A DNA stretch of 64,000 nt, taken from Rugalucina vietnamica (taxonomy: Eukaryota; Mollusca; Bivalvia; Lucinida; Lucinidae). Every line of letters begins with the position of its first letter. Position 1 is the first letter of the stretch. Under the pieces are notes generated by a model. It was given only the letters and a program-made list of their open reading frames with translations, was not told where the DNA came from and searched no databases. A program made the translations under genes and the position numbers. Shown piece after piece: positions 1 through 60,913 of this stretch. The stretch is from positions 32,449,621 to 32,513,620 of the forward strand of contig OZ024870.1 of NCBI GenBank assembly GCA_964017185.1, read 5' to 3'.

Positions 1-191
1 TCCGACACAAACCGGCCTGTACAAGCACAGAAAAGAGCTAGAAGCTTGGAATTTCGGATTTAAGTAGAAGAGGAATTGTACTATCCGAGTAGCGAAAACA
101 AAGGCGCTGATCAGCTTCGCGGTTACCGCGAAGCTGATCTGCGCCTTTGTTTTCGCCTATGCAGATTGTTGGTTTTCCCATGGGGCGGCTC
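1..191 (+). mobile_element. MITE family A, copy A1 (left end cut by window edge)
   Basis: Reference description of family A. An intact copy is about 235 bp. Its ends are ~27 bp inverted repeats beginning GAGCCGCCTCATGAGAAAA and ending in the mirror form GGCGGCTC. A conserved body follows (TCCGACACAAACCGGCCTGTAC, a run like AGAAGAGGAATTGTACTATCC), and near one end there is a hairpin with arms GCGAAAACAAAGGCGC..GCTTCGCGG around a TTAC-like loop. Where both ends are clear it is flanked by 4 bp A/T duplications (ATTT, ATAT, AATT, AAAT). No copy codes for protein, so it is a non-autonomous DNA transposon; the superfamily is not identified. I call copies with the hairpin near the right end plus. 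This copy lacks its left terminus and has an intact hairpin at about 99-163. Confidence 0.85.
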
Positions 192-341
192 ATTTGTTGA
201 GTAACTCGCCATTCGGAGGTCAGTTGTAAAAAAAAAATCAAATCACGAGCATGTAGTGTGAGTGATTAATATTCTTACAGCTGACTCACACTGAAAACTC
301 CATCACAGCCAAACTGTCAATGTGCCAATAGAAATTGATAT

Positions 342-576
342 GAGCCTGTGCGTGACAAAACCAACAATTTGGGTTTCTGACCAGGTCCGACACAAACCGG
401 CCTGTACTGTCACAGAAGCAGGCTAGAAACGTGAAATTTCGGATTTAAGAAGAAGAGGGATTGTACTATCCATGTAGCGAAAACAAAGGCGCTGATCAGC
501 TTCGCGGTTACCGCGAAGCTGGTCTGCGCCTTTGTTTTCGCATAGGCAAATTGTTGGTTTTCTCATGCACAGGCTC
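342..576 (+). mobile_element. MITE A, copy A2
   Basis: Both termini are present (GAGCCTGTG.. and ..CACAGGCTC); note that the two ends share the same departure from consensus (GTG/CAC). The hairpin at about 478-541 is intact with a TTAC loop. It lies in a protrudin intron. Confidence 0.85.
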
Positions 577-673
577 AATTTATGTTTTCTTTTCCTCTGT
601 CTCTGGGTAATTGTCTAACATTGCTATGTTTTGTATTCGATGAGCCACAAGGGGAAAAAAGCAGCCTTAGGAG

Positions 674-817
674 GTTCCGACCATGTCCTACACAGACCGG
701 TCTGTACAAGCTTGTGATTTCGGATATATGAAGAAGAGGGATTGTACTGTACATGTAGAGAAAACAAAGGCGCATTTATTTTTGCATATGCTTAAACTCG
801 GTTTTCTCATGACAGGG
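674..817 (+). mobile_element. MITE A, copy A3, hairpin deleted, left end lost
   Basis: Starts within the conserved body (GGTTCCGACCATGTCC) and runs to the degraded right terminus. The sequence reads AAAACAAAGGCGC and then directly ATTTATTTTTGCATATGC, so almost the entire inner stem and loop is missing. It ends about 30 nt before the splice acceptor of the first protrudin exon in the window. Confidence 0.75.
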
Positions 818-847
818 CTTCAGTGATATGTGTCAATATTTTTTCAG

Positions 848-897
848 AATGCTGTTTTGAATGTAATGTGTCCTTTTCCTCCATTTTAAAAAGAAGG
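848..897 (+). CDS. ZFYVE27: Protrudin-like FYVE gene, exon n-2
   Basis: The acceptor is TTTTTTCAG at 839-847 and the donor GTAAGT starts at 898. Frame: two leading bases complete a codon from the previous exon, then the exon reads CCFECNVSFSSILKRR and ends in phase 0. This is the start of a FYVE-type zinc finger (first CxxC, then a basic KRR patch) and matches the arrangement in vertebrate protrudin, where CxxC is followed by LKKRR and then CSNCGNSFC. Protrudin is an ER membrane protein that promotes endosome-ER contact and neurite outgrowth; its C-terminal FYVE domain binds membrane phosphoinositides. The upstream exons (membrane hairpins, FFAT motif) would lie left of the window. The identification rests on the joined exons, which fit in phase. 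Confidence 0.82.
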
Positions 898-1027
898 GTA
901 AGTCAGTTCATTTACCTTATTATTTCCCACAATTTCTTATTACAGTATTTGTTGTTCTATACAGATTAGATTATGCTAACTAATGGTGGATACATAGAGA
1001 AAATTGTTCTCTATTTTAACAATATAT

Positions 1028-1260
1028 GAGCTGTGAAGGGAGAAAACCTCTTCAGGGTTTCCGACCAGGTCCGACACAAACCGGCCTGTACAGTCTCAGA
1101 AAAAGGCTTGAAGCTTGAAATTTTGGATTTACGAAGTAGAGGCATTGCACTATCCATGTAGTGAAAACAAAGGCGCTGATCAAATTCACAGTTACTGCGA
1201 AGCTGATTTGCGCCTTTGTTTTCGCAAAGGCAAAAATTCGGTTTTCTCATGAAGCGGCTC
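1028..1260 (+). mobile_element. MITE A, copy A4
   Basis: Both ends are present (GAGCTGTGAAGGGAGAAAACC and CATGAAGCGGCTC). The inner stem is imperfect: the left arm reads AATTCACAG and the right arm CTGCGAAG, so only part of it pairs. It is in the intron between protrudin exons n-2 and n-1. Confidence 0.85.
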
Positions 1261-1663: not shown

Positions 1664-1678
1664 ATTTTATTCTTTCAG

Positions 1679-3314: not shown

Positions 3315-3495
3315 AACAGTCTACATGAGGAAGAGGCTAACTTTTTTCCTACAGACTTTAAGAAGAGAAAAACTTTTTCCTACAGTCTACTTGAGGAAGA
3401 GAAAAAGTTATGCCAATAGTCTACTTGAAAAATTTATACCTACAGTCTACTTGAGGAAAAGCAAAACTTATACCAACAGTCTGGACAGGATAAAT
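3315..3495. repeat. Tandem repeat, ~33 bp unit
   Basis: About five to six units built around ACAGTCTACTTGAGGAAGAG followed by an AAAACTT(T/A) stretch, with small indels. It begins just after the protrudin stop codon, so it probably lies in the 3' untranslated region. Confidence 0.7.
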
Positions 3496-3526
3496 GTATA
3501 CTAACACACTACATATGGAGAGATAT

Positions 3527-3760
3527 GAGCCACCTCGTGGAACAATCAACAATGTGGTTTCCGAACAGGTCTGACACAAACCGGCCTGTACAGCTACAGA
3601 AGCTGGCCAGAAACTTGAAATTTTGGAGTTAAGTAGAGGAGGAATTGTACTATCCGAGTAGCGAAAACAAAGGCGCTGATCAGCTTCGCGGTTACCGCGA
3701 AGCTGATCTGCGCCTTTGTTTTCGCCTATGCAGATTGTTGGTTTTCCCATGGGGCGGCTC
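3527..3760 (+). mobile_element. MITE A, copy A7, with 14 bp flanking direct repeat
   Basis: Complete copy with intact hairpin at about 3658-3725. It is flanked by the same 14 bases on each side, ATATGGAGAGATAT (3513-3526 and 3761-3774). Other copies show only 4 bp duplications. Confidence 0.88.
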
Positions 3761-4220
3761 ATATGGAGAGATATTATATACTGCTTTTATAGCAGTCTAC
3801 GTGGGAAACAGATATTCTAATATACTTACAGACTACTAAAATTATGGAGATATAGCTGTCATATACTAACTCACGGCTGAGGAAACATATAAACCTGTCT
3901 CATACTAAACAGAAATCACTGTAGAAGGAAATAACACAACTACTATAGCTAACAGACTGTTTGGGGATACATGAATTTCTGAAATATTTACAGAAGATAG
4001 AAAGAGGTTGATCATTTAGTCTTAGATAGGTGTCTACACTTCAATGCTGATTTATTGTTTTGGCTGTTTTGAAATGATCTTGCCTATACAGACACAGTTA
4101 TTATCTCAGGTTGAATCCTGGTTGAAGTATTGTAAGCAGATATAATTGCATGTAGATGCGGGTCAGATCATTAGAAAATAGTTTAAGAATCACAATCATT
4201 AAGGCACAGATCAGCCATAT

Positions 4221-4454
4221 AAGCCGTGTCATGAGGAAACCAACAATATGGTTTCTGAACAGGTCCGACACAAATTGAGCTGTACAATCACAGAAGATAG
4301 CTAGAGGGTGGAAATTTTGGATTTAGAAAGTAGATCAATTGTAACATCTGTGTAGCGAAAACAAAGGTGCTGATCAGCTTCACAGTTACTGCGCAGCTGG
4401 TCTGCGCCTTTGTTTTCGAAAATGCAAAATGTTGGTTTTCTCATAATGCAGCTC
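4221..4454 (+). mobile_element. MITE A, copy A8
   Basis: Complete but aged. The left end reads AGCCGTGTCATGAGG and the right end CATAATGCAGCTC. The hairpin arms are mixed (CTTCACAG left, CTGCGCAG right). Confidence 0.82.
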
Positions 4455-4740
4455 ATTTATTATTGATTATGTTCTGTGTTTTTTCTTACAATATCATCTT
4501 TCTAATAAAATATGTTTTTATATCATATGAACTGTGTCAAGAGAAATATTGTCATTGGGGTTTCTAACCAGCTTATACATGAGAACTTAGAGAAAATGGA
4601 AATAAAATGAGAGCTTGCCCTGTAACCAAGGCCCACATCAGCTGCCAGATAACTGCACAATTGATCTCTTGATGTTTTGCATAAGTCAAGAAATGTTTAG
4701 AGCAGTCTCCTGAGATAGTCCATTTCTGTGTATGTCAGTC

Positions 4741-4964: not shown

Positions 4965-5028
4965 AGTCTGCAATCCCTAATACATGTTTATCATGACACA
5001 AGTCAAAAATGAAACATTTAAACCATTT

Positions 5029-5424
5029 GAGCTGCGGCATGAGAAAATCGGATTTGTGCCTATTTAAAAAACAAAGGCGCCGATCTGCTGTGCAGTAACT
5101 GCACAGCTGAGTATCATCTTTGTTTTCGCTACATGGATAGTACAATCCTTCTTCCTCCTAAATCCAAAATTTCAAGCTTATAGCCTTTTTCTGTGACTGT
5201 ACAGGCTGGTTTATGTCGGACCTGGTCGGAAAAGAAAGGCGCAGACCAGCTTCGTAGTAATCGCGAAGCTGATCAGCGCCTTTGTTTTCGCCACATGGAT
5301 AGTACTATTCCTCTTCTGCTTATATCCAAAGTTTCAAGCTTCTAGCTTTATGCTGTGACTGTACAGCCAGGTTTGTGTTGGACCTGGTCAGAACCCAAAT
5401 TGTTGGTTTTCTAACGCACAGCTC
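5029..5424 (-). mobile_element. MITE A, head-to-tail dimer (A9 + A10)
   Basis: Two minus-orientation copies are fused: A9 (5029-5232) has the left terminus and lacks the right one; A10 (5233-5424) lacks the left terminus and ends in the right one. The junction reads CCTGGTCGGAAAAGAAAGGC, joining the body of A9 to the hairpin region of A10. Stem types differ: A9 carries GTGCAG..CTGCAC, A10 carries TTCGTAG..CGCGAA. A single pair of termini bounds the dimer. Confidence 0.8.
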
Positions 5425-5501
5425 GTATGTTTTAATTGACATTGACTGGAAGTCCAGAAAGTCTGTTGTAGAAAGTGATATACCATAAAATCAATGCATA
5501 T

Positions 5502-5722
5502 CCGCCACAGCATAAGAAAACTAACAACACACATTGGCAAAAACAAAGGTACATATCAGCTGTGCAGTACTGCACAGCTGATCAGCACCTTTGTTTTGGC
5601 TCCACAGATAGTATGAATGTATGATGCCTCTTCTTTCTAAATCTGTAATTTCAAGCTTCTATTTTTCTGTGGCTGAACAGCCATATTGAAACCCATATTG
5701 TTGGTTTTCTCATGTGAAGCTC
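5502..5722 (-). mobile_element. MITE A, copy A11
   Basis: Minus orientation, termini worn (CCGCCACAGCATAAG and CATGTGAAGCTC), ATAT on both sides. The inner hairpin CAGCTGTGCAGTACTGCACAG is nearly perfect with almost no loop. The body has lost part of the GGCCTGTACAG segment. Confidence 0.8.
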
Positions 5723-5823
5723 ATATTCCTTTTTCATTTTCATATCATACTATGAAGTACTGTAGCTTATGTGTTTATGTTATTAATTTAGTGTTTGTTT
5801 GAAAACTCATTTTATAAACATTT

Positions 5824-6046
5824 GAGCCACATCATGAGAAATCCAACAATCTGCATATGGGAAAACAAAGGCTTCACGGTAACTGCAAAGCTGATTGGCG
5901 CCTTTGTTTTTGCTAAATGGGTAGTACAATTCCTCTACTTTCTAAATCCAAAATTTCCACCCTCTATCCATCTTCTTTTTCTGAATAGCCTGGTTTATGT
6001 CAAACCTGGTCGGAAACCACACTGTTGGTTTTCTTAGGGAGGGCTC
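5824..6046 (-). mobile_element. MITE A, copy A12, partial hairpin loss
   Basis: Minus orientation, flanked by ATTT on both sides. The left hairpin arm reads AAAACAAAGGCTTCACGG, missing the GCGCTGATCAG segment, whereas the right arm is full. Confidence 0.82.
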
Positions 6047-6250
6047 ATTTGTTAGTGGTCACAGTATTTCAGTTTTTGCAACAGATATATCCTGTGCTCT
6101 TTGTACTCATCAATTCTCATATATTATTGGTTATACATCATGGATGGTCCTCTTCACAAGATTAAGTTCTGTCCTGACATGACTTAAACATTGTTGACTT
6201 GGACTTTAAGCAGTAACAAGAAAAACATGTTTTAGATGATGGGAGTTATT

Positions 6251-6764: not shown

Positions 6765-7170
6765 AGCTTTTTGTTAAAGCTTATACTTGTTATTAATTAT
6801 AGGTATTGACAGAATGGTCCACAGTATAAAAAGTGGCATATCTCATTTTGTTACATGAACTTTTAAAACTCCCACATGTGGCTGTATAAAGATTGAAGGC
6901 TTTGCCGTTTTGTTGTGCTGAATTTCTTGTGAAGATGACAGTTTGTACTTTTATGTTTATGATAAGTGTTAATTGATAATCAAAGTTTAATTAATCCTGT
7001 TTGCCATAGTCAGAGAATAATACTAGTCAATGTAATTTACCATATCATGCCTTTGAAATGGGACCTTACTGTTTTACGTGTCACTTTTTGTATTTGGTTG
7101 ATGCAAGCTGGATGGCTACCTTTTTGGGAAAGAGTTAGTTATTTTGCTCTTCATGCTTGTTAAAATATTT

Positions 7171-7373
7171 GAGCCGCCTCATGGGAAAACAAACAATATG
7201 CGTAGACGAAAACAAAGATGCAGATCAGCTTCGCGGTCACCGCGAAGCTGATCAGCGCCTTTGTTTTCGCTACTCGGATAGTACAATTCCTCTCCTCCTA
7301 AAATCCGAGTACAGGTCGGTTTGTGTGGGACCTGTTCGGAAACCACATTGTTGGTTTTCCCACGAGGCGACTC
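7171..7373 (-). mobile_element. MITE A, copy A13
   Basis: Minus orientation, ATTT duplicated on both sides. The inner stem is perfect, AGCTTCGCGGTCACCGCGAAGC. A ~30 bp deletion removes the body segment normally found before the GTACAGG word. Confidence 0.87.
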
Positions 7374-7543
7374 ATTTTTGTGATGATTTATGCTGTTCTT
7401 TCTTTCTTACCGGGTCTCTGGGGTGGGCTTCTCTCTGAGCTTTCCAATATACAACATTAACAGAGTTAATTCTGATTGGATATTGCTTCAGGAAGAAAAG
7501 TTACTTGTGGAATTTTGATGGTTCTGATCAGCAGATTAGATAT

Positions 7544-7777
7544 GAGCCGCCTCGTGGGAAAACCAACAATGTGGTTTCCGAACTGGTGTGACACAAACCG
7601 ACCTGTACAACCACAGAAAAGAGCTAGAAGCTTGAAATTTCGGATTTAAGTAGAAGAGGAATTGTACTATCCGAGTAGCGAAAACAAAGGCGCTGATCAG
7701 CTTCGCGGTTACCGCGAAGCTGATCTGGGTCTTTGTTTTCGCCTATGCAAATTGTTGGTTTTCCCATGAGGCGGCTC
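7544..7777 (+). mobile_element. MITE A, copy A14 (best-preserved)
   Basis: Complete, with 27 bp termini (GAGCCGCCTCGTGGGAAAAC; GTTTTCCCATGAGGCGGCTC) and ATAT on both sides. The hairpin is intact with a TTAC loop. Confidence 0.9.
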
Positions 7778-8016
7778 ATATGATAAGTATTCCATTTGGC
7801 TTATAACTCCCTGGGCCGGTAGTTAAGACATGCCCACTAAAATCTCAACAGGTAAACCCGTAATAAAACTCTGGCCGGTTGGCAACAAAGTCGGCTGTTT
7901 CCACCATAACTCTACCAACTGTTCATCACAAAGTCAAGCGTGGGCATGAGTCATTCAAATAAAAGTATGCTTATAAAATTGAAAATTACGCCACATCAGA
8001 CATATGATTGGTATTC

Positions 8017-9308: not shown

Positions 9309-9553
9309 TATGTCAACACATTCTGCTCAAGGAACTTTTCTATAAAACCATTGACCAAACACATTCACCAGTACTTATTATACATTTTTTCACCACTAAC
9401 TGTCACAGTTTCTTGGTTTATGTAAAATAATATGCATTTAGAACTTTTTAGGGGCTCATCCAAAACACAACTATACAAATACTTTCTTGAATTTAGACCT
9501 TAAAAAGTATTGTTAGTGTGAATGTCTTCAAAGCTTTTAATGTTTCTACATAT

Positions 9554-9778
9554 GAGCCGCCTCATGAGAAAACCAACAATGTGGTTTCGGAACAAGTTTG
9601 GCATACACAGGTCTGTACAGTGACAGAAAATCGCTAGAGGCTTGAAATTTCAGATTTAGAAAGTCAAAGAATTGTACTATTTCTGTAGTGAAAAACAAAG
9701 GTCTGATCAGCTTTGCAGAGCTGATCTGCATCTATATTTTTGCATTTGCAAAATGCTGGCTTTCTCATGATACGGCTC
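9554..9778 (+). mobile_element. MITE A, copy A15
   Basis: ATAT on both sides. The hairpin is shortened to AGCTTTGCAGAGCTGATC, with loss of the loop and part of the right arm. Last of the dense left-hand cluster. Confidence 0.85.
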
Positions 9779-9928
9779 ATATAATGTGTCCATATACCAC
9801 ATGATGTAAGCTTCTTTGTCTGATAATGTCAATTTGTGCTCTTATATGTTGTTTTGTAATGCTTGAACAAAACTACAAAATTACTGAAATCCCATGTACA
9901 AACTGAGAACAGTATTATAGATTTTTAT

Positions 9929-10563
9929 ACCCCGCCACTTAAAAAAGTGCGGGGTATTATGTTATACCCTCCAAAGAAAAATTGTGTTCGAGTGTCCGTC
10001 CGTCCGTCCGTCTGTCCGTCCGTCCGTCTGTCCGTCCGTCCATCCGTCAGCATTTCATTTCCGGGCTCTATCTTGAGCATTTATTGACCGATTTTCTTCA
10101 AACTTTGTATAGGAGTTCATATCAGGAAGGAGTGGTTTTGGATTGAAGATGGGTAAATTTCGTCAAATAAGTACAGAGTTATGGCCCTTGATTTACGTTA
10201 AAATTTTGTTTCTGGGCTCTATCTTGAGTATTTATTGACCGATTTTCTTCAAACTTTGTATAGGAGTTCATATCAGGAAGGAGTGGTTTGGGATTGAAGA
10301 TGGGTAAATTTTGTCAAATAAGTACAGAGTTATGGCTCTTGATTTACGTTAAAATTTTGTTTCCGGACTCTTATCTTGATTATTTATTGACCGATTTTCT
10401 TCAAACTTTGTATAGGAGTTCATATCAGGAAGGAGTGGTTTGGGATTGAAAATGAATAAAATTCGTTAAATAAGTACTACAGAGTTATGGCCCATGATTT
10501 ACATTAAAATTTCGTTTCCTGCCTCTGTTTTGTGCATTTATTAACCAATCAATTTTCTTCAAA
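9929..10563. mobile_element. Tandem-repeat element K, left part
   Basis: Starts with ATACCCCGCCACTT and the small inverted word GTGCGGGGTAT, then a (GTCC)n microsatellite (9995-10046), then three-plus units of ~150 bp, each containing TTTATTGACCGATTTTCTTC, TATAGGAGTTCATATCAGGA, and ATAAGTACAGAGTTATGGC. The array stops abruptly at 10563 in the middle of a unit (TTCTTCAAA) and resumes at 13451. The combination of tetranucleotide run plus tandem core resembles the pearl-type elements described in bivalves; that parallel is from general knowledge and was not tested. Confidence 0.75.
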
Positions 10564-23109: not shown

Positions 23110-25450
23110 TACAAATAATTTATTCAGCATTAAACATTAATTACAATGTTTATAGCCACATAGAACATATATAAATAAATTTTGCTACATTGCAAATGAC
23201 CTTTCTTGATGTAGAGGATAGCAGGCTTTCAAACTTTCTTAGACTCGGCCAATGACAATAATACAATTTAAAATATTTCATTCTTAATTCTCTGTATCGA
23301 GGGCAGACTAATAAAAATGATATTCGTCTTCAATTTTATTCATTGAGCATGATCTACAGAGCCTAGTTTGCCTATTCATGTCGTCATATCTACCGGTTTC
23401 AATTTTCAAGTCATGTGATGAAGTTCTAAATCTAGTCAAAGCGATTTTGTATTTCTTCTCAGGAATAACGTCTAGGTATTTTTCTATTTCAAAAGAATGC
23501 TTAAAGATACAGTAAGATTCCAGTCGTGAGGAGTTATTAATTTCTGAATACCAAGACTGTTTATAAGTATCAAAAATTCTAAGCTTGATTGTTTCAAAGG
23601 GGATTTCAATTTCGGACTGGAGTTGCCAAATATATTCTAAACCGTGTGTTTGCAGGATGTGTTTAATTTGCCAGGCCCAATTATATCCGCGATAGTTAAG
23701 ATCATTGTCAGCATCTTTCTTTAACATATCATAAATCTGCTTGACGAGCGACGTGTCGCTTAGTAGCAATATTTTCTTCCAATACTTTATCATATTGAGT
23801 TTACGAATAATTATAAGGGGTACCCTGCCTAATTCTCCGTAAAGGGCAGACAAGTTTGTTGATTTTTTCACTCCCAGTATACGTCTAAGAAATTTCGTGT
23901 GTACTAATTCGATATCTGTGGCATTGTGCATTCCCCATATTTCCGATCCGAAATTTAAGATTGATGCGACTAACGTATCGAACAATTTACATTTCTGTAT
24001 TGTTGGCAATTCTATTTTATCAAATATCATGAAAAGATTGTGTAGCGCGAATGCAGCGTGTTTAGCAATGCATTTCTGGCTTCGATACCAATTTCCGTTT
24101 TTAAACAGTGTAATGCCTAGATATTTGAACGACTCGACAACTTGAATGACAGTGTTATAAATATAGAAATCATAATATGTTGAATATCGTCCTTTCTCGA
24201 ATATCATTACTTTAGTCTTTTCTATATTTATTTTAAGTCCCCAAAGGCGGCAGTAAGTTTCTATATCTGTTAAAATTGATTGCAGAGATTCGGGTGACGT
24301 CGCGAATGCTACTTGGTCGTCAGCGTATAAAATGAGAAATAATTTTAGCTCGTTCAGAGTAAATATGTTTTCAAGGTCCGAATTTATGTTTGCAACTATA
24401 TCGTTCACAAATAGCATAAATAGGAGCGGCGAACTCGGGTCCCCTTGTTTTAAACCGATGTCGGATTCAAAAAAGTTCGAATAGGATCCCCTATATCTTA
24501 TACATGATTTAACTGTATTATACATTGATTTAATAGCGTTTACTAATTTACTATTTATGTTCTGAGATAACAGTTTTTGCCAGAGAAAAGTTCGGTCAAT
24601 TTTATCAAAACATTTCTCATAATCTATGAAAACACAATATAGTTTTTGTCCAGAATTTAAAACCTTAGATATAATGGAATGAAAGATGAATATACAATCA
24701 GTGATCGACTTGCCTTTTTGAAATCCGAATTGGTTTTTACTTATTTTTTCATAAGTTTCTGCCCAAGTTGTCAATCTGTTTAGAAGAAGTTGGGAGTAGG
24801 TCTTTGCTAAAATATTTATAAGTGTGATTCCGCGGTAGTTTGAGCTGTTACTGACATCACCTTTTTTGAAAATCGGTGTTATAATACCTTCGCCCCAAGA
24901 GCTTGGATATTCTCCTGTGTTAAACATTCTATTGTATAGCCTGAGTAGAAAAGAGGAAATAAAGTCATACGCTGTTTTAATTATTTCGCTGGAGATGGAA
25001 TCTAAACCCGGTGATTTGTTATCTTTTTGAGAAAACACTGCTCGACGCAGTTCTGGTTCTGTAAATGCATAGTCGAGTTCTTCAAATGTTGTTTCGTTAC
25101 CTAAGTCAAAGTTTGTTGTATCAGACTCAGGGTTTATGTCATGCGTTTCTCCAAACCTTTGAAATGATCGTGTAACTGTTCGATTGTAAGTGTGTCCGCT
25201 TTTTCCGGTGTTTTATTGTACGATGCTTTAATGTTTTTCCAAAACTTTTTAGGATTCGATTTTGCCAATCTGTTTACGCGTAATCCTTCGTTAATTTTAT
25301 ATTTTTGTTTCGCTTTTTTCTTAATTCGATTAAACCGCGTCCGCGCTCGCGTAAATGTTTTACGGGATTCTTCCGTTTGTGATTTCTTAAAATTATTTCT
25401 TATAGAAATGCACCTACTGTATATCTGCAGTTTGACAACGGCACATTACT
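23110..25450 (-). pseudogene. Non-LTR retrotransposon (LINE) reverse transcriptase, 5'-truncated and frameshifted
   Basis: The main open stretch (25038-23308) is a LINE reverse transcriptase: palm/fingers motifs NKSPGLDSISSEIIK, YRGITLINILAKTYSQLLLNR, CVFIDYEKCFDKIDR, GLKQGDPSSPLLFMLFVNDI and the catalytic LILYADDQ, with the thumb after it. Two single-base shifts can be read around it. Upstream, a lysine/arginine-rich pre-RT stretch (25425-25165, with RLAKSNPKKFWKNIKASYNK) is in another frame. Downstream, past the apparent stop at 23308, the frame continues LVCPRYRELRMKYF.. to TAA at 23150-23152, completing a C-terminal CxxC..H..C motif (LCRSC...HFYLVC). The endonuclease domain is absent. The clade is not assigned. 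Frameshifts could be decay or assembly error. Confidence 0.85.
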
Positions 25451-25715: not shown

Positions 25716-26336
25716 CCTAATGAGTTTGTAAAATGGTTACGTCTGGTATGGTTTGAAAATGTATGTGAATTGGTCTGAATAATTTTAAAGTTCAATTAGG
25801 AAACAAAATCGAGTACTGATGAATAATTAATGTCTTAATTTAATAAGTTCTATGCATTCAATTATTTCTTGAAATTATTTTGTTTGCTTTAGATCGAAAG
25901 TTGTTTCTCTCCTTTGTCCAAATTTTCAATAAAACGGCCTAGTTCTATCTAATCACACACTAAATACAACTTCTAGTGACGTGCTTGAAGACGGAATAAT
26001 ATACAAAATGGTATAGTTTTGCGTTTGGATTTCTTGCATTTTTTGCACGCTGTCTTTTACCAAGTAAAAACGTTTTATAAACTGCATTCCGACAATATTA
26101 AAAAAGCTGAGTTGTATAAGTTAGGCATAGTCCGAGAAAAAAATGTAACATTTGATTGAAACTCAGTTTCACAAAGAACTTACAGGAAATGAAAGCATCA
26201 AAGACTTTTCAGTTGCTTGGGTAAAGAACAGTCTACTCATTGTACCAGTATGGTGACAAAAAGCCGCGTCTACATATAAGATTGGAGCTATTTTCTACAT
26301 AGAAAAGTGGGGTGGTAAAATAATACTGAAACATTT

Positions 26337-26496
26337 GAGCCGCCTCATCAGAAAACAAACAATATGCGTATGCGAAAATAGTTTTCGCTTTAGTACAATC
26401 CCTCTTTTTCTTAAATCCAAAATCCATTTCAAGCCTCTAGCGGTTTGTGTCGGACCTGGTCGGAAACTAAATTGTTGTTTCTCTCAGTGAAGGCTC
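26337..26496 (-). mobile_element. MITE A, copy A16, hairpin removed
   Basis: Minus orientation. The hairpin is reduced to GCGAAAATAGTTTTCGC, i.e. only the outermost 7 bp of each arm remain around TAG. The right end is worn (AGTGAAGGCTC) and lies 24 nt before the next exon. Confidence 0.8.
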
Positions 26497-26520
26497 TTTT
26501 TTTGTTTTGTTTTGTTTTAG

Positions 26521-26605: not shown

Positions 26606-26619
26606 GTAGTTTGATATTT

Positions 26620-26858
26620 GAGCCGTCTCGAGGGAAAACCAACAATGTGGTTTTCGAACAGATCTGACACAAACCGGCCTGTACAGCTACAGAAGCAGGC
26701 TAGACGCTTGAAATTTTGGAGTTAAGTAGAGAAGGAATTGTACTATCCGAGTAGCGAAAACAAAGGCGCTGATCAGCTTCGCGGTTACCGCGAAGCTGAT
26801 CTGCGCCTTCAGTTTGTTTTCGCCTATGCAGATTGTTGGTTTTCCCACGGTGCGGCTC
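26620..26858 (+). mobile_element. MITE A, copy A17, against a splice donor
   Basis: Complete, ATTT on both sides (26616-26619 and 26859-26862). It starts 14 nt after the donor of the candidate exon. The right hairpin arm carries a four-base insertion (GCGCCTTCAGTTTGTTTTCGC). A small extra body fragment (ATGGTCCGACACAAACCGGTC) lies at about 26903-26923. Confidence 0.88.
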
Positions 26859-27130
26859 ATTTGTGCCTTCACAGGAGAAAAAAAAACGTTTGGGATTCGG
26901 ACATGGTCCGACACAAACCGGTCATGAAACTATGCGGACGAACCACAAAACAAAGAAACAAAAAATGCAACTACGTACAGCGGGACTGAAGACACGCGAA
27001 AATCATAGATTTACCCTTCTATATATTCAATTCTATACCGTTTATTTCAAGTCATTTACAAATTTTCAAGCAGAAAACTTGTCATTTTTATGAATGGCTT
27101 CTGATGCTGCTATGCGGACCCAACACATAA

Positions 27131-31709: not shown

Positions 31710-31918
31710 GAGCCGCGTCACAAGAAAACCGGATTTTTGCCTATGCGAAAACAAGCGAAGCTGATCAGCGCCTTTGTTTTCGCTACACGGATAGTACACT
31801 TTCTCTTCTTATTAAATCCGAAATTTCAGGTTTCTATGCTGCTTCTGGGACTGTACATGTCGGTTTGTGTCATACTTGGTCGGAAACCCCGAAGACCGGT
31901 TTTCTCGCGTCGCGGCTC
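31710..31918 (-). mobile_element. MITE A, copy A18, one hairpin arm lost
   Basis: Termini GAGCCGCGTCACAAG and CGCGTCGCGGCTC. The left arm is cut to GCGAAAACAAGCGAAGCTGA, so it runs straight into the right arm. The CCGAAGACCGGTTTTC right end matches the subtype of A5. Confidence 0.83.
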
Positions 31919-32604
31919 ATTAATATTGAATTTTGAAATGATGTGTAACCGTATCTTCAATGGCAAAAAAGATAAATGTATTACATAGGTGTAAATTATG
32001 TAAAGTGTATGTTGAGATATCTGATGATTTTCACAAGTGATTGATGTCAGCCGATATTTTAACTGTAAATTTCTGATAACTACTGACGTTTCCATTCACT
32101 TGACGTCATTAAAAAGTGGTTCACGTCAGAAATTCTAACGCCTTTAACTCAGTTATTTAAAAAATAACATAAAGTATTGGTGTTTAATTTCTTAAATTTT
32201 TATTTAGAACGTAAGGAAGAGTGTACCAAAAATATTTGTGTTTTCAATATATTTTTTTTTCATTTTCACCGCCTGCCTCTTCAATGGGAAAATTTACAAA
32301 ATCAACACACTAGATTAAATATATTTGGTATTCAATTCAAAAAAGTAGAATATCCTCTAAGTATATACCCATACCCATACATACATGTACACGCCAATCT
32401 TGAAAAGTCAGTCGCACATTAACATACAAGACAAACGCGACCCTGGCGTATGAAAAAATCTCAACACGCTGAATAAGAAAATTTGCTTCTTAAACTTTAA
32501 TTACCTATAGTATAGGACTTACGGCTTATCAATTACTAGAATCTAGTAAAACCACAACATGGAAGTATGGAGAAACTTCCGACCACTTTTGCAGCCTCTT
32601 GGCG

Positions 32605-39014: not shown

Positions 39015-40600
39015 AACAACCAGAGGACCAATGGTCCTGTAAACGCTCACCTGAGACCTGAGATATATACATGTACCAATAAACTTGTTAGACTAGAATG
39101 GTACAATGCATGTATATAACCCTAGGGCAGGGTCAGAATAACTCTTGGAGTCAATGTCTTTTTGAAATCATAAAAATTCAGTCCATTTGCCAATAAACTG
39201 CAAGTTTTGTCCTTCAAATGACATTTTAACAATTTTTTCCATTCAAATGCATGGTCGATCTAAGTTGACCTTGCCGTGAAATAGGTCAAGGTCATCCCAG
39301 TGTCATGATTTATACAAATTTTGTAGACCTCCTTTCCTTAATGCTTCATGCCAAGTTTCAAAATCATAGGCCTTCTGGTTCTGAAGAAGAAGATTTTTAA
39401 AAATTTTTGCTATTTATAGCCATGGCGGCCATCTTGGTCATGTGACCTTGACCATTTATATAAACTTTCATTTCCTCTTCATAAGGATGCTCCACATAAA
39501 GTTTGGCTTTGATTGGCTAAGCAGTTTCTGAGAAAAAGCTGTTTGAATATTATGGTCATCTACATGTATATAGCTCCTGGGCAATGACAGACAACCCCTG
39601 GGCCTTAAATATTTTCATAAGCATAAATCTTCTGTCCATTTGCTCATTCCTAGCAAGTTTTCTGCCATTACATGACATTTTCCTATTTTTTCCCATTCAA
39701 ATGCATGGGCGACCTAAGTTGGCCTTGCCGTAAAATAAGTCAAGGTCATCCCAGGGTCATGATTTATATCAACTTTGTAGAGCTACATTCCCAGATGCTT
39801 CATACCAAGTTTCAAAATCATAGGCCTTCTGGTTCTGAAGAAGAAGATTTTTAAACGTTTTTGCTATTTATAGCCATGGCGGCCATCTTGGTCATGTGAC
39901 CTTGACCATTTATACAAACTTTCATTCCCCCTTCCTAAGAATGCTCCACAAAATGTTTGGCTTTGATTGGCCTAGCGGTTTCAGAGAAGAAGATGTTTCA
40001 ATATTATGGTCATATACATGTATATAGCCCCGGGGCAGGGGCAGACAACCCCCTGGGCCCAAAATATTTTCTTAAACATAAATCTTCTGTCCATTTGCTC
40101 ATTTCTAGCAAGTTTTCTGCCATTTAATTACATTTTCCTATTTTTTCCCATTCCAATGCATGGGAGACCTAAGTTGACCTTGCCGTAAAATAGGTCAAGG
40201 TCATCCCAGGGTCATGATTTATACAAACTTTGTAGAGCTCTATTCCCAGATGCTTCACACCAAGTTTCAAAATCATAGGCCTTCTGGTTCTGAAGAAGAA
40301 GATTTTTAAAAGTTTTCGCTATTTATAGCCATGGCGACCATCTTGGTCATGTGACCTTGACCATTTATATAAACTTTCATTCTCCCTTCCATGCTCCACA
40401 TGAAGTTTGGCTTTGATTGGCCTAGCGGTTTCAGAGAAGAAGATGTTTGAATATTATGGTTATATACATGTATATAGCCCCGGGGCAGGGGAGCAGACAA
40501 CCCCCCAGGGGCTAAAATTTTCCATTAACATTAATCTTCTGTCCATTTGCCTATTCCCAACAATACTTTACTCTCGTTATAACACAAATTGAATATAGCT
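39015..40600. repeat. Tandem array, ~452 bp unit, about 3.2 copies
   Basis: Unit starts marked by GCCCCGGGGCAGGGGCAGAC or variants fall at 39120, 39573, 40026 and 40477, giving periods near 452. Each unit contains CATGGCGGCCATCTTGGTCA, GTGACCTTGACCATTTATA and AAGAAGATTTTTAAA. The array is introduced by GGTCCTGTAAACGCTCACCTGAG, related to the ends of the element at 14866-16816, so it is probably the core of such an element. Confidence 0.78.
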
Positions 40601-41525: not shown

Positions 41526-42245
41526 TATGATGCATTTTTTGGAGTAGGGGTTGGTTTTTGGGAAACGGCAGCCATCTTGGACGCCATCTTGAATACTGGA
41601 GTTATGCAAGGTTTGCCAAGGTGGCAAACGCTGGATTTCAAAACTACAGACCAAGACGAACATTTTGGTATATAGAAACAAATGTGGTACTCCGTAGACC
41701 ACCTACTCCTATTTCTAAGCTACTTTTTGAACCATATTTGCTCCAGTATTGTCGGAACAATTATTTGCAGTTTTTCTCGAGGCGCGTGAATTTGGTCTTT
41801 ATTCCTTACAACAGCCACATGCCCTCAGGTAAATGTTTGCTTATTTCATTGTTTCATATACCTGGCACGCTGTGTTAAAAATGAAAGATGGCGCACCACC
41901 ATGGCGGAACTTTTGACCGCGGTTAAAATTTCTGGAAATAACAATGAAAAAACTACCCAGTATTATCCAAGCTGTCTTAATTCACAACATCAACACGTTG
42001 GAAAGTGATAGCGAGCATCGGTACCAGTGGAAACATTCCCGGAATCTGGAAAATGTCTCATTATTAATAAAACGCGAATTTCGCGCAAGAAGGTGATCGG
42101 CCACCATTTCCTGTGAGACGGAAGCCAGGAAATAGGAAACACTTAAGCTGAGACGCCAAAGAGCCAGAAAACAACGCTTTCGAGGAAAGAAGCCAGATGA
42201 GAAGCTGGCTCACATAAAAGCCCTTCCTAAGAAGTGAACACAACC

Positions 42246-42620
42246 GTTCTTCAAGAACAGGAACCTACTACCGTTCTTCAAGAACAGGAACCTACTGCCG
42301 TTCTTCAAGAATAGGAACGTACTGCCGTTCTTCAAGAACAGGAACCTACTGCCGTTCTTCAAGAACAGGAACCTACTGCCGCTCTTCAAGAACAGGAACG
42401 TACTGCTGTTCTTCAAGAACAGGAACCTACTGCCGTTCTTCAAGAACAGGAACCTACTGCCGTTCTTCAAGAACAAGAACCTACTGCCGTTCTTCAAGAG
42501 CAGGAACCTACTACCGTTCTTCAAGAACAGGAACCTACTGCCGTTCTTTAAGAACAGGAACCTACTGCCGTTCTTTAAGAACAGGAACCTACTGCCGTTC
42601 TTCAAGAACAGAAACCTAGA
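42246..42620. repeat. 27 bp minisatellite, about 14 units
   Basis: Unit GTTCTTCAAGAACAGGAACC then TACTGCC, tandem with few substitutions. Because 27 is divisible by three, a frame stays open: on the minus strand it reads KNGSRFLFL repeated; the plus frame VLQEQEPTA is broken by TAG and TAA in two kinds of unit. Each unit also contains the palindrome TTCTTCAAGAA. Whether any of it is translated is unknown; the sequence just upstream (41890-42240) is GC-richer than its surroundings but shows no supported gene. Confidence 0.88.
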
Positions 42621-43433
42621 GCAGTTCTACCAGAGCCTACTTGTATAACTTCTATCAAGGACAGTTGTGACCTGGATCATACCTGTCAAATTCAGGATTT
42701 AACCTGTAGCAGTGATATGCGCTCTGAGAGCACTTAATTACTATAATATGCCCATGTAGGGTTTGAGGTTATTTTTGTTAGAAATGTATTATAGACGACC
42801 TACTATAACTCCATTGGTTGTTAGCATGTCTTGTTGATTAAACACGGATACAAAGTATTTAAGATACAAATTATACACTAATACAACGTAATCACCAACA
42901 ACAAACGACCCCTTCACAACTGACAGAGGAGAGCAACTGTTTTCATAGCCTGGTTCCCGTCGTCAAACCGGAAACCGTTCTTGACGCCTCCGAGAATGAT
43001 AATGAAGGAGTCGGGTACCAGACTACTGTTTTCATATTTAAAGTCCACGATTTCTACGAAAATGCTATGATAAATAGTTAAAAAGGAAGGTTTTGTAATA
43101 TTGTCAATATGGTTGGTTGTGCTTGTGAAAAAAATCAAAACCTAATTTGCATTGAGGAAGACATTAAATTGCTTGTGCAATGACACATCTGCAATCTTAG
43201 GTCGCATGATTAAAGGCAGTTATTTGCACTGCACCTATTTAGAGATCCATTCCCTTACAAAAAATTCTATCACGTTTACTCTGTTTTGACAGGGGATTTT
43301 TTGGTGATTTCATAGGCTTGACAGGGCTGATGTAATTAAATTTGAACAAAAAATTGTACTGGTTTGTTTCGAAACTTTGAGAACGATGACATGGTTATCG
43401 ATACCATGCAAAAAGAAATTTAACACATGAAAT

Positions 43434-43691
43434 GAGCCCCTGCAAAAGAAAAAAAAACAACAACAAATAATCTGCATATGCAAAAGGAAATGCGCAGATC
43501 AGCTTCGCAGCAACTGCGAAGCTGATCAGCGCCTTTGTTTTCGCAATAGGGATAGTGCTATTCCTCTTCTATTTAAATCAAAACTCTCTAACTTCTAGCT
43601 ATTTTCTGTGATTGTAGACTGTTTGTGTACAGGTCGGTTTGTATCGGATCTATTCTGAAACCACATTGTTGGTGTTTGTTATGACGTGGCT
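43434..43691 (-). mobile_element. MITE A, copy A19
   Basis: Termini GAGCCCCTGCAAAAG and GACGTGGCT, AAAT-like duplications. The stem is a third variety, CTTCGCAG..CTGCGAAG. A ~25 bp insertion sits in the body. Confidence 0.82.
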
Positions 43692-43889
43692 AAAATGATT
43701 GTAACTGACTCTGATTCTTTTCTTCCATCCATGCAATTACTATGATAATAAACGCAGTTTGAATGAAAAAGGTACAGGCAGTGAAGTAGTTAAACCCACC
43801 TGCCCATGCATTTTACATGGATTTTTATTGCATAAATTAAAAATTTCGTTAAAAAATACTTCAGTATCTATGCTCAAAACAATTAATTG

Positions 43890-48483: not shown

Positions 48484-49617
48484 TGAATAATGACAATTCG
48501 GACCTTGGCTAATTCGGCCCTAGTCAATTCGGACCCTAAAAAATTCGGCCCTAGTCAATTCGGACCTCGACCACTGGTCAGTTCGGACCCCGACCACTGG
48601 TCAATTCGGACCCTTTTTAATTGGTCAATTCGGACCTCAATTAGAAAAAATCTTTGGTCAATTCGGACCTTTTCCATTGGTCAATTCGGACCTTTTCCGT
48701 TTGTCAATTCGGACCTTTTCCATTGGTCAATTCGGACCTTTTCCTTTGGGCAATTCGGACTTTTTCATTATCTATTTTCCACAAAGAAAACTTCGATCAG
48801 ATTAAAACGAGCCAACCTAGCATCTAGAATGAGACTTCAATTCCTATATTGGCCGAAAAATCTGATGCATCGTTTCAATAGACTAATTTTGATATTGCTT
48901 TCATGTTACAAAACATAAAGTACTCGTATGAAACAGATGGGCTGCTTGAGCCTAAAGGCAGAGCTTCGACACTACTGAATGACCGTCTGATCACTGGTTA
49001 ACCGCTCAGAAGGTTTGATCGTGCCCAGGAAAAGTGGTTAAAGTGAAACCATCTAGTGTTTACTTGAATGGTTTTCAAGTACATTTTGGTGTCATGACAT
49101 CGTAATATTAGTTAAAAGTCCTACAAAATGGAGGCATCGTTCCGACATAACCATAGCTGTTGACTGGGACGCTTAACAACAAATCAATCAATCAACAAAA
49201 CAAAGTACTTTACTCGCGAATACTTCATGAAATAATAGCATGATTACTAGAATGCATTTCTATTTTAATGATTTGAAGACACAGGCAATCCCTTCCATCT
49301 TGAATCGATTCAAGCACTGGCTGATTCGGACCTTATTTCTGTTTCACATGTGGTCAATTCGGACCTTAAACATATTGTGACATTGGCTAATTCGGACCCT
49401 AATCTGATTCGGACCTTGGCTAATTCGGACCCTATTTCAAAAAAATCATTGGCTAATTCGGACCTCGATTTTGCGGGGTCCGAATTGACCAATGGTCGAG
49501 GTCCGAATTAGCCAAGGTCCGAATTAGCCAAGGTCCGAATTGTCCACAGCTGAGGTCCGAATCAGGTCCGAATTAGCCAAGGTCCGAATTAGCCAAGGTC
49601 CGAATTGTCCACGTACC
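48484..49617. mobile_element. Element G: inverted minisatellite ends (CAATTCGGACC), right part of the nested insertion
   Basis: The left end is an array of ~15-28 bp units containing CAATTCGGACC (48490-48770); another forward array at 49318-49470 flips orientation at about 49480 and continues as GGTCCGAATT(A/G) units to 49612. Outermost sequences GACAATTCGGACCTTGGCTA and its mirror make it a foldback element with tandemly repeated ends. The right border is followed by the second CTCACTCT (49618-49625), after which the LINE resumes in frame (LTLTSRNLSRNTHW). Confidence 0.78.
48955..49200 (+). mobile_element. SINE S2, copy 3, inside element G
   Basis: Plus orientation: CTGATCACTGGTTAACCGCT, CAAAATGGAGGCATCGTTCC, ATAGCTGTTGACTGGGACG and a tail ending AACAAATCAATCAATCAAC. 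It occupies the middle of element G, between its forward arrays. Confidence 0.68.
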
Positions 49618-52600
49618 CTCACTCTCACCTCACGCAACCTAAGCAGAAACACACACTGGTATGTTCATCAAAACTGTCTTGGCAGTGATCACTTCCCTAT
49701 TGTATCTAAATATAACTGTTTCTTTAAAACTGTACTTCAGAACCCCCTACCTAAATGGAAGATAAGTAAGGCTAACTGGACCCTTTTTGGCAGCTTCGAT
49801 GAATGCGATGCGCAGCTCGTCGAAGAAATTGTCAATGCATGCAATAAGTCAATTCCCAAAACTAAACCCATTAACAATAAGGGCAGACACTTACCTTGGT
49901 GAGACAGCATGTATGGAGGCCGTTAAAGCAAAGCGACGTGCATACAAGCTCTGGACTAGACACAAAACAGATCACTATAAGGAACTTTATAAGACAGCAA
50001 GGGCAAAAAGTAAGGTTGTTTTAGATAATGCAAAGAAGACCAAGTTTAGAGAATTCATCTCTAAACTCAACCATAACACCAACAGTAAGGAAGTTTGCCA
50101 GATCATATCTAAATTTAATGGCAAACCTTTTAAACCAGTAGAGGTCATTAAGCAAGATAATGTAAGGTACCATGAAAATAAGGATAAGGCAAATGTTTTG
50201 GCAAACCACTATCAGAAGATCAGTAGCAATGACCTCCTGCAACCTGAATTTAAGGATAAGAAAAGGGAAGTAGAACCTGCCATAGATGAAACAGTAAACG
50301 AGAGCATATCCACAGGCAATGGCGAACCATATAACGCACTCTTCAAAATAAACGAACTCAACACAGCACAATACACTATGACATGTTAAAAAACCTAACT
50401 GCCACAGGCAAATCACAACTTCTAAAATTAATCAACAAATCATGGACAGAAGGTAAACTACCAGACCAGTGGAAACTAGGCACAATCATACCACTACTTA
50501 AACCAAACAAACCAGTACATGAGCCAGGATCTTATAGACCAATATCACTTACATCAGCTGTTTGTAAAATAATGGAAAACATGATAGCTAACAGACTGAC
50601 AAGTCACATAGAAAATAATAACCTTCTTGCACCCACTCAATCAGGCTTAAGGAAAAACAGATCTACCCTTGATCAGATCATTCGGTTACAATCAGCCATA
50701 CTTAAGGCTAAAATGGAAAATAGGGAACTTCTATGTATATTTCTTGATCTTGAAAAAGCTTTTGATCTCATGTGGACTAAGGTGGTACAAGCACAGCTAG
50801 TAAAGTTTAACATCAAGGGTAGAATTTTAGGCTGGGTGCAAGATTTTCTAAAAGACAGGAAAATTCAAGTAAGAGTAGGAAGTGACTTGTCAGATGTTAG
50901 ACTCCTAGACAACGGTTCACCACAGGGTAGCGTATTGAGCCCAATACTTTTTTAACATACTTGCCAATACGCAATAATAATATGAGGTACTTAAGGAACT
51001 CTTTGCAGAGCTGTCCCAGTACGCGGATGACTCAGCGGTCTGGAAAACGGCCAAGAGTGTGAAGCGACTGGTCCAACTTCTGCAAAGAATTTTAAACATT
51101 ATTAAAGAATGGGCAGAAGCACTAGGCATCAAGATATCAGCGGGTAAAACAGAGGTGGTACTTTACAACAGCAATCTAAGGGATGACATACCCAAACTTA
51201 AGATAGGGAACCAGGAACTAGAGTACAAAACCCAGGGCAAATTCCTAGGTCTCACATTTGATAACAGGCTTCATTGGGTTAAACACATTGACCAGTTAGT
51301 CCTCCGATGCAAGAAAGATCTCAATCTAATGAGGTATCTATCAGGAACTAAGTTCGGGGCAGATAAGTTAACTCTTATGACAATCTATAAAACAATTATT
51401 AGAAGTAAGTTAGACTATGGGTGTCAGGCGTATGCGTCAGCATCCAAATCCCAACTAGCACGATTAGATCGTATTCAGTCAGCAGCACTTAGGATAGTCA
51501 CAGGGCAACAGGTCAACTCCCATTACCGACCTACAAGTAGAATGTTGCGTTCCTCCTCTTGAATTAAGGAGAGCGGAACTCATTCTCAAATACTGGGCTA
51601 GGTCATCAACCAACGGTCCAAACCTACCCTTGAATGACCTATACGGGCATTCAGTATACGAGACAGCAAGGCATAAGTTGGGGGGGGGGGGGCAAAATAC
51701 CATTTGTAATGCAGGTACAGGATCTTAAAACTAAGTATCACCTAGAAGACATTGAGGTTCAAGAACCAGTGTACGCACAAAACTGTGCTCTGGAGGGTAT
51801 TGACCCTAGAGAAACTGTCAAACCAACAATAAACAAAAAACTGATACTATCGCATCTATTGAAGGCAAGGTAACCAATCTTATTAGTAGCAGTTATCATG
51901 ACCATCTCCACACATTCACTGACGGCAGTAAAGACACTGATAAGAGAATAGTAGGGTGCGCATTTGTAATCCCAGAACTTAAGATTACCAGGAGCTTTAA
52001 GTAAGGGGGGGGGACCTCTCCATCTTTTCGGCAGAACTCGTAGCTATCATTGAAGGTTTAAAATGGGTTAAGGAAAACAAACCAGATAAGGTTGTAATAC
52101 TGACAGATTCTCTCAGTTCGATTAGGACATTAAAATCGGGGAACAACTCTAGGCCTGACCTAATTCTTCAGGTCAACACACTTGTCGATGCAATAGTCAG
52201 GGAGAATGTAATCTTAAATATGGACTGGTGTCCATCCCACTGTAACATAGTAGGGAACGACCTAGCCGATGAAGCAGCGAAAACTGGGTCAACACACGGG
52301 AGGGAAGTCAACATTAAAATGAGCAAAACTGAGGCATATAGTCGTATTAAGAGGGTTATCAAGGATCAATGGGCAAAGAAATGGAGGGAGCATAAGCATG
52401 GGTTCAGATGGGATCTAGACAATAATTTACCTACCAAATTAATCCAATATAGTGATGAAAGACTATTAGACAGGGTATACGCTAGACTCAGATTAGGGCG
52501 TAATGGCTTAAGATTTAATAACCAGACACATAGCAAAATGGACCTCATGTGCCCACACTGTGATGAAATAGAGGATACAGACCACTATTTCCTTAGATGT

Positions 52601-52774
52601 CACATGCATATAGACCATAGGATAGTCATGTTCAACAGTATTAAGGATAACATTTCAGATATAGGGGAGATAACAGTTAAAACACTTCTTAATCCCAGTC
52701 ATGCACACTCAGAAATTATCAGAGGTGCCGTTTTCCAGTGCATTAGGGACACAGAATACATGTCGCGCATCTAA

Positions 52775-58575: not shown

Positions 58576-58741
58576 GTTCACTAACCGAATAAACATTGAT
58601 ACCAATTATATATAGCTCCTTCAGAAGTAAGCCTTTAAGTATTCATATATTCAATTAAGGCATATTACAACGAGCAAGCAAATAACAATCGTTGAGCTGC
58701 CTATTATAAGATTGAATACAACTGAGTCCGTTTAATTTCAG

Positions 58742-58916
58742 CCACCACCCCCACCATATCACAGCGGATCATTTACGAGTTTCACCCTGTAGCGAAGACA
58801 TGGAACGTGGCCCGGGACATCTGCGAAAGCAGACAGGGACAACTTGTCAAGTTCGAATCCTTGACACAAGAGCACGAGATTTACTACTTGGTCAGTCAGA
58901 AATATGCAACCTACAT
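58742..58916 (+). CDS. C-type lectin/PAN membrane protein, lectin exon 1
   Basis: The acceptor TTTAATTTCAG ends at 58741; the donor GTAAGT starts at 58917. After two bases completing an earlier codon it reads TTPTISQRIIYEFHPVAKTW, NVARDICESRQGQLVKFES and LTQEHEIYYLVSQKYATY, plus two bases. The A-x-x-x-C-x-x-x-x-G-x-L-V pattern is the first half of a C-type lectin-like domain, containing its first conserved cysteine. The N-terminal Thr/Pro stretch implies a linker from a preceding exon (a candidate at 26521-26605 fits in phase). The product would be secreted or on the cell surface; a role in recognition is inferred from the fold only. Confidence 0.85.
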
Positions 58917-59360
58917 GTAAGTTAGTACATTTAAGCTGAATAGACTAAGCCTGAAGTACCAACCTTAGATGACTGTTTAGTTGGTTACCGGACACCGGTC
59001 CTGGCTGAACAATATGAAAGTTTAAATCATACCGATCTCATACAACAGGCTAATCGATATTTGGTGCTTTAATAACGACATGTTCACTAAACATGCTAAA
59101 GCACGCAAGTAAAAAAACAGGTTCGATCCCAGGGAGGAAACAATAATTACATTTGGCAGCCGACGTGGTGTCATTCACGCAAAACCCGTTTTACTTCACT
59201 CGATCAAATTGTGTGATATTAACGAGAACCAAAAATCTGCAAAAACAAAGACATACAAGTTACAAGGTGAACGAAGTACATGCGCTTATTAGTACAATGA
59301 GTGTCATCTATACATATGGTATACATAAAAGCTTATAGCAAATCAGTCCAACATTTATAG

Positions 59361-59578
59361 GCAAAACAGCCCAACTATCTGGACAGGAGGCCATGTAAAC
59401 GACTCGTCAGAGTTGGTCTATCAAGACTGCCTTCCAGCGACGGCCAACACGATACCTGTCGCTATACCGGGGCCTGACGTCGCATGTGTCGCTGTCGAGT
59501 TGACAGCAGCCAACACTTTCTTCTACGACTATGATCATTGTAGTAACACAAGAAAGTTCGTTTGTCAGAGAATTATCG
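59361..59578 (+). CDS. C-type lectin/PAN membrane protein, lectin exon 2
   Basis: The acceptor ATTTATAG ends at 59360; the donor GTATGT starts at 59579; 218 nt continuing the phase. It reads QNSPTIWTGGHVNDSSELVY, QDCLPATANTIPVAIPGPDV, ACVAVELTAANTFFYDYDHC and SNTRKFVCQRIIG. WTGG replaces the usual WIGL; ACV, DHC and FVCQ provide the conserved cysteines, so the fold should form. The sugar/calcium motifs EPN or QPD and WND are not recognisable (GPD and FYDYD stand in those regions), so canonical calcium-dependent sugar binding is doubtful. One potential N-glycosylation site (NDSS). Confidence 0.87.
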
Positions 59579-59861
59579 GTATGTATGAAATACTGGGTCA
59601 CGTTGTTTGACGTCTAAGTGTCAGACGCTGTACATAGCCGTTCAGGGTTGTTTTGAACTCCTCTAGTATTAATTTCATGAATCCGGTGCAAGGTTTACTC
59701 TCAATTGAAAAAGTACCCGATTGTCGCACCTTACAACCGAATACGCCATTTGAAACTTTATATATATAGCTTTGCTTTTCTCACCCACCAGACAAGCATA
59801 TCCCATTGTGTGCCTGTCCTAGATTTTTCTGTCTCAGTACTAGAAGATTTCAGCTGTCTGA

Positions 59862-60274
59862 AAATGCCAATTAAAAAGGTACAAGTAGGCAAAGATCAGG
59901 AAAAGACGCAATCAGAAAAAGATTCCCACTCCAAAAACCGAGGTGGGAAAAAACCAAAGTAACAATCAGGTACTTTATACCATAAAACATATCGTAAGCC
60001 GAATGAGCAGCTATTTTCCCAATAGGTGGCCACTCAGTTACCTTAACTTAACTAAAAATATGAAAACATACATAAGGCGCCAACAGCACAAAAAAATTAA
60101 ACACCAAGACATAAAACAAAAAGAACCACTACAGAAGTATCGACTTGGAACGATCAGTAACACAAAGTTACTGGCGGGCTTAAACCGGTTTTACAGGTAC
60201 CTAACCTCACCCTCAGCTTCTGCAGTGGTTCATAACATTTAGTTAGTTATTTGGTCCTTGTGGTGAATCTCTAA
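59862..60274 (+). mobile_element. Family I repeat, copy I2, intronic
   Basis: Opposite-strand partner of 38394-38805. From ATG 59874 it reads MPIKKVQVGKDQEKTQSEKD then SHSKNRGGKKPK and stops; after the stop NNQVLY occurs in another frame. It continues with CCACTCAGTTACCTTAACTT, ACTGGCGGGCTTAAACCGGT and ends GGTCCTTGTGGTGAATCTC. Located in the intron between lectin exon 2 and the PAN exon. Confidence 0.65.
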
Positions 60275-60679
60275 CTAGTCAATGAATCATCAAGAACAAA
60301 CAAATAAATCATGATAAACATCCTGATGAATCAAAACCCAGGACTCACAGATTGAGTAAGCTGCCCGACGATGGAGATCCCTGGGCGCCGAATAACCTAC
60401 TAACTCCGGAGCAAAAGAAAAACACCAGTTGGACCCCGGTGGGGTCTGTAATACTGTATCTGGCCAATAGAAATGTGCATCTTTATGTGTACCTCCAAAT
60501 AAGGAAGTGATAAGCTGGATGTCAACTGTCAGTGACAAATGTTAATTTCAGGAAGTTTAAAGGGGTAATTGAAGTCTGCTGCTTTGATAAAAATCTCAAA
60601 ATTTAATTTTGCTGAGCATTTTATGCCAAAACAAAATGCTGATTAAATATGTTTGTAAGGTTAGTGCATATACAAAATT

Positions 60680-60913
60680 GAGCCGCCGCATGAGAAAACC
60701 AACGATTTGGGTTCCGACCAGGTCCAACACAAACAGGCCTGTACAGTTACAGAAGACGGTTAGAGGCTGGAAATTTTAGATTTAGAAAGTAGAAGAATTG
60801 TACTATCCGTGTAGCGAAAACAAAGGTGCTGATCAGCTGTGCAATTACTGCACAGCTGATCTGCGCCTTTGGTTTCGCATATGCATATTGTTGGTTTTCT
60901 CATGCACTGGCTC
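60680..60913 (+). mobile_element. MITE A, copy A20, intronic
   Basis: Complete with AATT on both sides; ends GAGCCGCCGCATGAG and CATGCACTGGCTC. The stem is of the TGTGCA..TGCACA type with an ATTAC loop. Confidence 0.88.

Follow-up and report, generated by a model that had tools for sequence, protein, structure and literature searches.

Matched changes near the loop of a subterminal hairpin in a MITE family of Rugalucina vietnamica

In the window, meaning the whole 64-kb stretch of DNA that was analysed from the bivalve Rugalucina vietnamica (contig OZ024870.1, positions 32,449,621 to 32,513,620), the two arms of a hairpin carried by a MITE family show more matched changes near the loop than chance would give. 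We consider it probable, at roughly 0.6, that these changes were made by short arm-to-arm copying in source elements and spread by transposition, and that the arms have since decayed mainly on one side at a time.

The MITE family, its copies and its hairpin

A profile search of the window found 20 copies or fragments of the MITE on both strands, 15 of which lie within the first 10 kb. The element is about 234 bp long, with ends GAGCC...GGCTC, and is laid out as a left TIR, a body of about 105 bp, the hairpin, a spacer of about 9 bp and a right TIR. The TIRs are 27 nt long, and their left/right identity is 0.767 in the 17 copies with both ends. The TSD is 4 bp (AWWT), and exact duplicates were counted in 10 of the 16 copies (out of 20) whose ends are readable, as compared to a shuffle mean of 3.2, with none of 20,000 shuffles reaching 10. 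Of the scanned ORFs with a length of 110 aa or more, only the one at 3421-3786 (minus strand) overlies a MITE copy, and it had no Pfam match. TIRs, a fixed-length TSD and a short length without a transposase were all found, and the element is a new MITE family of a kind already known. It resembles other MITEs in being short, in having no recognised coding capacity, in its TIRs and fixed-length TSDs, and in its subfamilies and many diverged copies, 20 of them in these 64 kb. In addition to the TIRs it carries a subterminal near-palindrome of 65 nt, which sits close to the right end and may set it apart from most MITEs.

The copies at 3524-3763 (hairpin 3661-3725, unpaired only at pair 17, which is T.T) and 7541-7780 (hairpin 7678-7742) are full length, lie on the plus strand and are flanked by the TSD ATAT. 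Also on the plus strand are the copies at 1-194, with its left end outside the window (hairpin 92-156), 339-579 (hairpin 477-541; TIR positions 9-12 are TGTG at both ends), 1025-1263 (hairpin 1161-1225; five pairs unmatched between the arms), 1426-1666 (hairpin 1564-1628), 4218-4457 (hairpin 4355-4419; pair 26 mixed T/G), 26617-26861 (TSD ATTT; hairpin 26754-26823, its right arm with a short insertion) and 60677-60917 (TSD AATT; hairpin 60814-60878 of the GT form, its 9-mer carrying one mismatch). The minus strand carries the copies at 1893-2135 (hairpin 1931-1995, GT form), 5499-5725 (hairpin 5537-5600, both arms in the GT form), 5821-6049 (hairpin 5859-5913, right arm partly lost), 7168-7376 (hairpin 7206-7270) and 43431-43695 (hairpin 43480-43544). 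At 5026-5427, two minus-strand copies are joined head to tail, each missing one TIR: the copy at 5026-5234 is without the left TIR (hairpin 5064-5129, both arms in the GT form), and the copy at 5229-5427 is without the right one (hairpin 5229-5291). Moreover, the hairpin is partly or mostly lost in four copies, namely 639-822 (plus strand, mostly deleted), 9551-9781 (plus strand; hairpin 9688-9743, loop region lost), 26334-26499 (minus strand, mostly deleted) and 31707-31921 (minus strand, right stem arm mostly deleted), a loss that is as expected if palindromes are deletion-prone.

The preliminary description had treated the inner stem as a unit of 9 bp; the hairpin actually has arms of 32 nt, a loop of 1 nt and a mismatch at pair 17, and the 9-mer corresponds to pairs 23 to 31, at the loop end. 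Pair 17 is T.T in 14 of the 17 copies, A.A in one (copy 1893), T.G in one and unreadable in one; none of the 16 readable copies has a Watson-Crick pair there. The three self-complementary inner-stem forms described earlier all exist, but the second of them is fully self-complementary in two copies, not three. The sequence GCTTCGCGG is present on both arms in seven copies (14 matches, with 0.07 expected). The second form, GCTGTGCAG, occupies both arms in two copies (5087/5099 and 5559/5570) and just one arm at 1965 and 60848; the 9-mers of copy 60677-60917 are identical at 8/9 positions (GCTGTGCAA versus GCTGTGCAG). The third, GCTTCGCAG, is on both arms in one copy (43502/43514, in copy 43431) and on a single arm at 1195. 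The inner stems of copies 1025, 4218, 5229 and 5821 are unmatched.

Matched and one-sided changes along the stem

Changes in the stem were counted in 17 of the 20 copies, with pair 17 excluded; copies 639, 26334 and 31707 were omitted, as much of their stem is missing. The 508 readable pair cells comprised 431 consensus cells, 57 with a one-sided change, 16 with a matched change and 4 in which both arms had changed without matching, and these counts were identical across three alignments. A few of the one-sided cells stem from a one-base shift in the left arm of copy 9551, which has nine mismatches. Matched change, presented earlier as the rule in the stem, is thus the exception, with 16 of the 77 changed pair cells. 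Moreover, 14 of these 16 cells fall at three of the 31 pairs, as the matched changes are found at pairs 26 (four copies), 27 (four) and 30 (six), besides pairs 14 and 15 (one copy each). Pairs 26 and 27 change jointly in the same four copies (1893, 5026, 5499 and 60677), and pair 30 divides the GCTTCGCGG group from six other copies; within the GCTTCGCGG group itself (7 copies, 217 cells) there were seven one-sided changes and no matched one. Overall, the matched cells amount to about two shared steps near the loop.

When the right arms were permuted among copies, a procedure that ignores the relatedness of the copies, the left/right identity of the whole stem fell from 0.880 to 0.842 (3/20,000), and that of the inner 15 pairs from 0.900 to 0.831 (1/20,000). 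For the outer 16 pairs, the values were 0.862 observed and 0.853 permuted (3824/20,000). In addition, the arms were simulated to evolve independently on a tree built from the columns of the body and the TIRs, with the scale set by the mismatches observed, and also with CpG transitions made six times faster. The 16 matched cells of the whole stem compare with simulated means of 0.8 to 1.8, and the 14 of the inner half with 0.24 (0.77 with the faster CpG transitions); none of 1000 simulations reached either count. No excess was found in the outer half, where the two matched cells compare with 0.63 or 1.47 and were reached in 125 and 411 of 1000 simulations. The earlier statement that changes on one arm are matched on the other therefore holds beyond chance for the inner 15 pairs, but not for the outer 16. 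Both partners had changed in 9 cells in the true register, as compared to 1 to 7 in slid registers; since the true register is barely above the others, co-occurrence alone is largely a matter of shared ancestry, and it is the complementarity of the changes that shared ancestry does not explain.

Subfamily inheritance combined with CpG decay, in which the arms would have changed separately and would match by luck, is another reading. In its favour, the arm has eight CpG positions, which hold 24 of the 57 one-sided changes, CpG sites include pairs 27 and 30, and the matched forms are all shared or few. However, the simulation with six-fold CpG rates gave a mean of 1.75 and a maximum of 11 matched cells against the 16 observed (0/1000), and pair 26 carries a T-to-G transversion that is matched on both arms; we regard this explanation as very unlikely.

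Selection of the stem on a transcript, as an RNA hairpin (a small-RNA precursor or similar), appears extremely improbable. Folded as RNA, the intact hairpin of copy 3524 reaches -54.7 kcal/mol, as compared to a shuffle mean of -18.65 (z -12.35), but any perfect palindrome folds equally well. Mismatches showed no bias of G-T over A-C (12 kinds and 22 cells versus 13 kinds and 16 cells), and a search of the window against Rfam at the gathering threshold gave no matches. Paired changes along the whole stem together with tolerance of G-U, as an RNA stem would show, were not found, and an RNA function was rejected.

The TIRs served as a control. Their 455 cells, from the 17 copies with both ends, comprised 321 consensus, 94 one-sided, 28 matched and 12 doubly changed cells, the matched count ranging from 24 to 28 between three alignments. 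Permutation lowered their left/right identity to 0.696, and none of 20,000 permutations reached the observed value. Matched blocks included TGTG at positions 9-12 (one copy), TT at 28-29 (four copies) and GG at 25-26 (two copies). In the simulation, 20 matched cells were observed in 14 copies against 2 to 3 expected, a comparison that is partly circular as the tree includes TIR columns. As the TIRs also covary, concerted change is not peculiar to the hairpin; the inverted repeats of this MITE generally change in concert.

Probable arm-to-arm copying and its alternatives

Template switching, or quasi-palindrome correction by another name, offers a mechanism for arm-to-arm copying. Within source elements, the part of one arm nearest the loop would have been re-copied from the other arm, probably by a nascent DNA strand that folded back on itself, in about two steps, one affecting pairs 26 and 27 jointly and the other pair 30. 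Each paired form would then have been carried to several copies by transposition, and after insertion the arms would drift mainly one side at a time. Each paired step is inferred to have been one copying event; the alternative is a pair of substitutions that followed one another and were retained by selection in the source. Since T.T persists at pair 17 in most copies, copying tracts, if any, must have been short. In agreement with this mechanism, a published study (PMC8794818) shows that hairpins can be both created and maintained by template switching, which can also produce compensatory changes of several bases. The hairpins described there resemble the one studied here in their multi-base paired stem changes, small loop and multicopy mosaic signals; they belong to microRNA and rRNA genes, whereas here the stem is part of a transposon and, once inserted, mostly decays.

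Several observations speak against copying. Pairs 27 and 30 belong to CpGs, where separate matched transitions can arise, no copying was seen in the outer half of the stem, and divergence is somewhat lower in the stem than in the body (0.162 versus 0.228; Mann-Whitney p 0.043), leaving room for some constraint. Moreover, the G at pair 26 in copy 4218, found on one arm only, could be a stepwise intermediate. Loop inversion is a hallmark of template switching, and no clear case was seen among the MITE hairpins. A possible inversion of the hairpin was considered for copy 1893, which has A.A at pair 17 and whose left arm carries TACA at 14-17, as does the right arm of copy 5499, but the loop base disagrees.

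The lower divergence of the stem would also fit a different explanation, namely that in source elements the hairpin is under selection because transposition needs it, either as a structure in the DNA or as a binding site for a protein, so that only paired forms amplify. The forms common to several copies are indeed the paired ones, and the TIRs, which need recognition by a transposase, show the same matched pattern. However, the outer half is without paired change, the mismatch at pair 17 stayed open wherever it is readable, and one-sided variants are also common to several copies: a T at pair 14 of the left arm, opposite an unchanged C on the right, is common to four copies and is a mismatch tolerated in a source, and a right-arm variant at pair 20 is common to three. 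Selection of this kind is in our view rather unlikely, even though, with only about two events, it and copying are not statistically separable. The preliminary description had offered selection or arm-to-arm conversion as alternatives; our results point more towards copying or conversion within a small number of source elements than towards selection of every hairpin, as the matched changes are concentrated and shared, the GCTTCGCGG group has one-sided changes only, the outer half shows no excess, and the mismatches give no sign of a G-T bias that an RNA stem would suggest.

It is also possible that stem forms were exchanged between copies. In the fullest version of this idea, the hairpin would be a module that MITE lineages exchange and that is copied anew, with the inverted repeats evolving in concert as a unit; fold-back copying at gap repair or replication would homogenise the arms, and entire stem forms would be transferred among copies whose bodies and ends differ. 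A single clade of the four GCTGTGCAG copies was rejected on body columns (AU p 0.016) but not once the TIRs were added (p 0.068), so that mosaic exchange is only suggested, and a single clade of the GCTTCGCGG group was not rejected in either case (p 0.276 and 0.069). We consider the module version distinctly unlikely.

Altogether, the family is a small, clean case in which paired changes inherited within a mobile element can mimic selection on a stem, and any claim of function should first distinguish subfamily-level paired substitutions from changes that arose after insertion. If arm-to-arm copying does account for the pattern, MITEs that bear palindromes and have many dated insertions could serve to gauge template switching in animals.

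Possible relatives and the surrounding sequence

Sola-type DNA transposons have a 4-bp TSD, and some of them have GAG...CTC ends. The MITE resembles them in its 4-bp TSD and its GAG...CTC-like ends. According to PMC4455052, superfamily is decided by TSD length together with terminal alignment. No transposase or autonomous partner of the MITE was found, and phages gave no match to it. Several searches of viral contigs returned no matches, others returned 16 unconfirmed stretches and 2 stretches, and the search of genome contigs returned 23 stretches. As candidate homologues, 25 outside loci yielded 12 weak matches in the profile search (best 17.3 bits), which is as expected because the loci had been chosen by a pattern taken from the element, and none was accepted. 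In the portions of the literature available, searches on palindromic or subterminal MITEs and on internal stems with covariation gave no description of the element, and those on template switching with MITEs, concerted TIR evolution and bivalve MITEs did not find it either; a search with the element's own sequence strings gave only an unrelated paper.

A second long near-palindrome, seen by eye at 2341-2520, is unrelated in sequence to the MITE. Tandem arrays are found at 10058-10546 (151 bp x 3.2), 39200-40557 (454 bp x 3.0), 42244-42618 (27 bp x 13.9) and 48494-49606 (repeats of 16 to 33 bp with AATTCGGACC). The stretches 23308-25212 and 50335-52774 have RVT_1 and RNase H matches and are LINE-type elements, whose reverse transcriptase ORFs fit a eukaryote. 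Lastly, an ORF at 61230-61700 has a PAN_1 domain match and is possibly an exon of a host gene.
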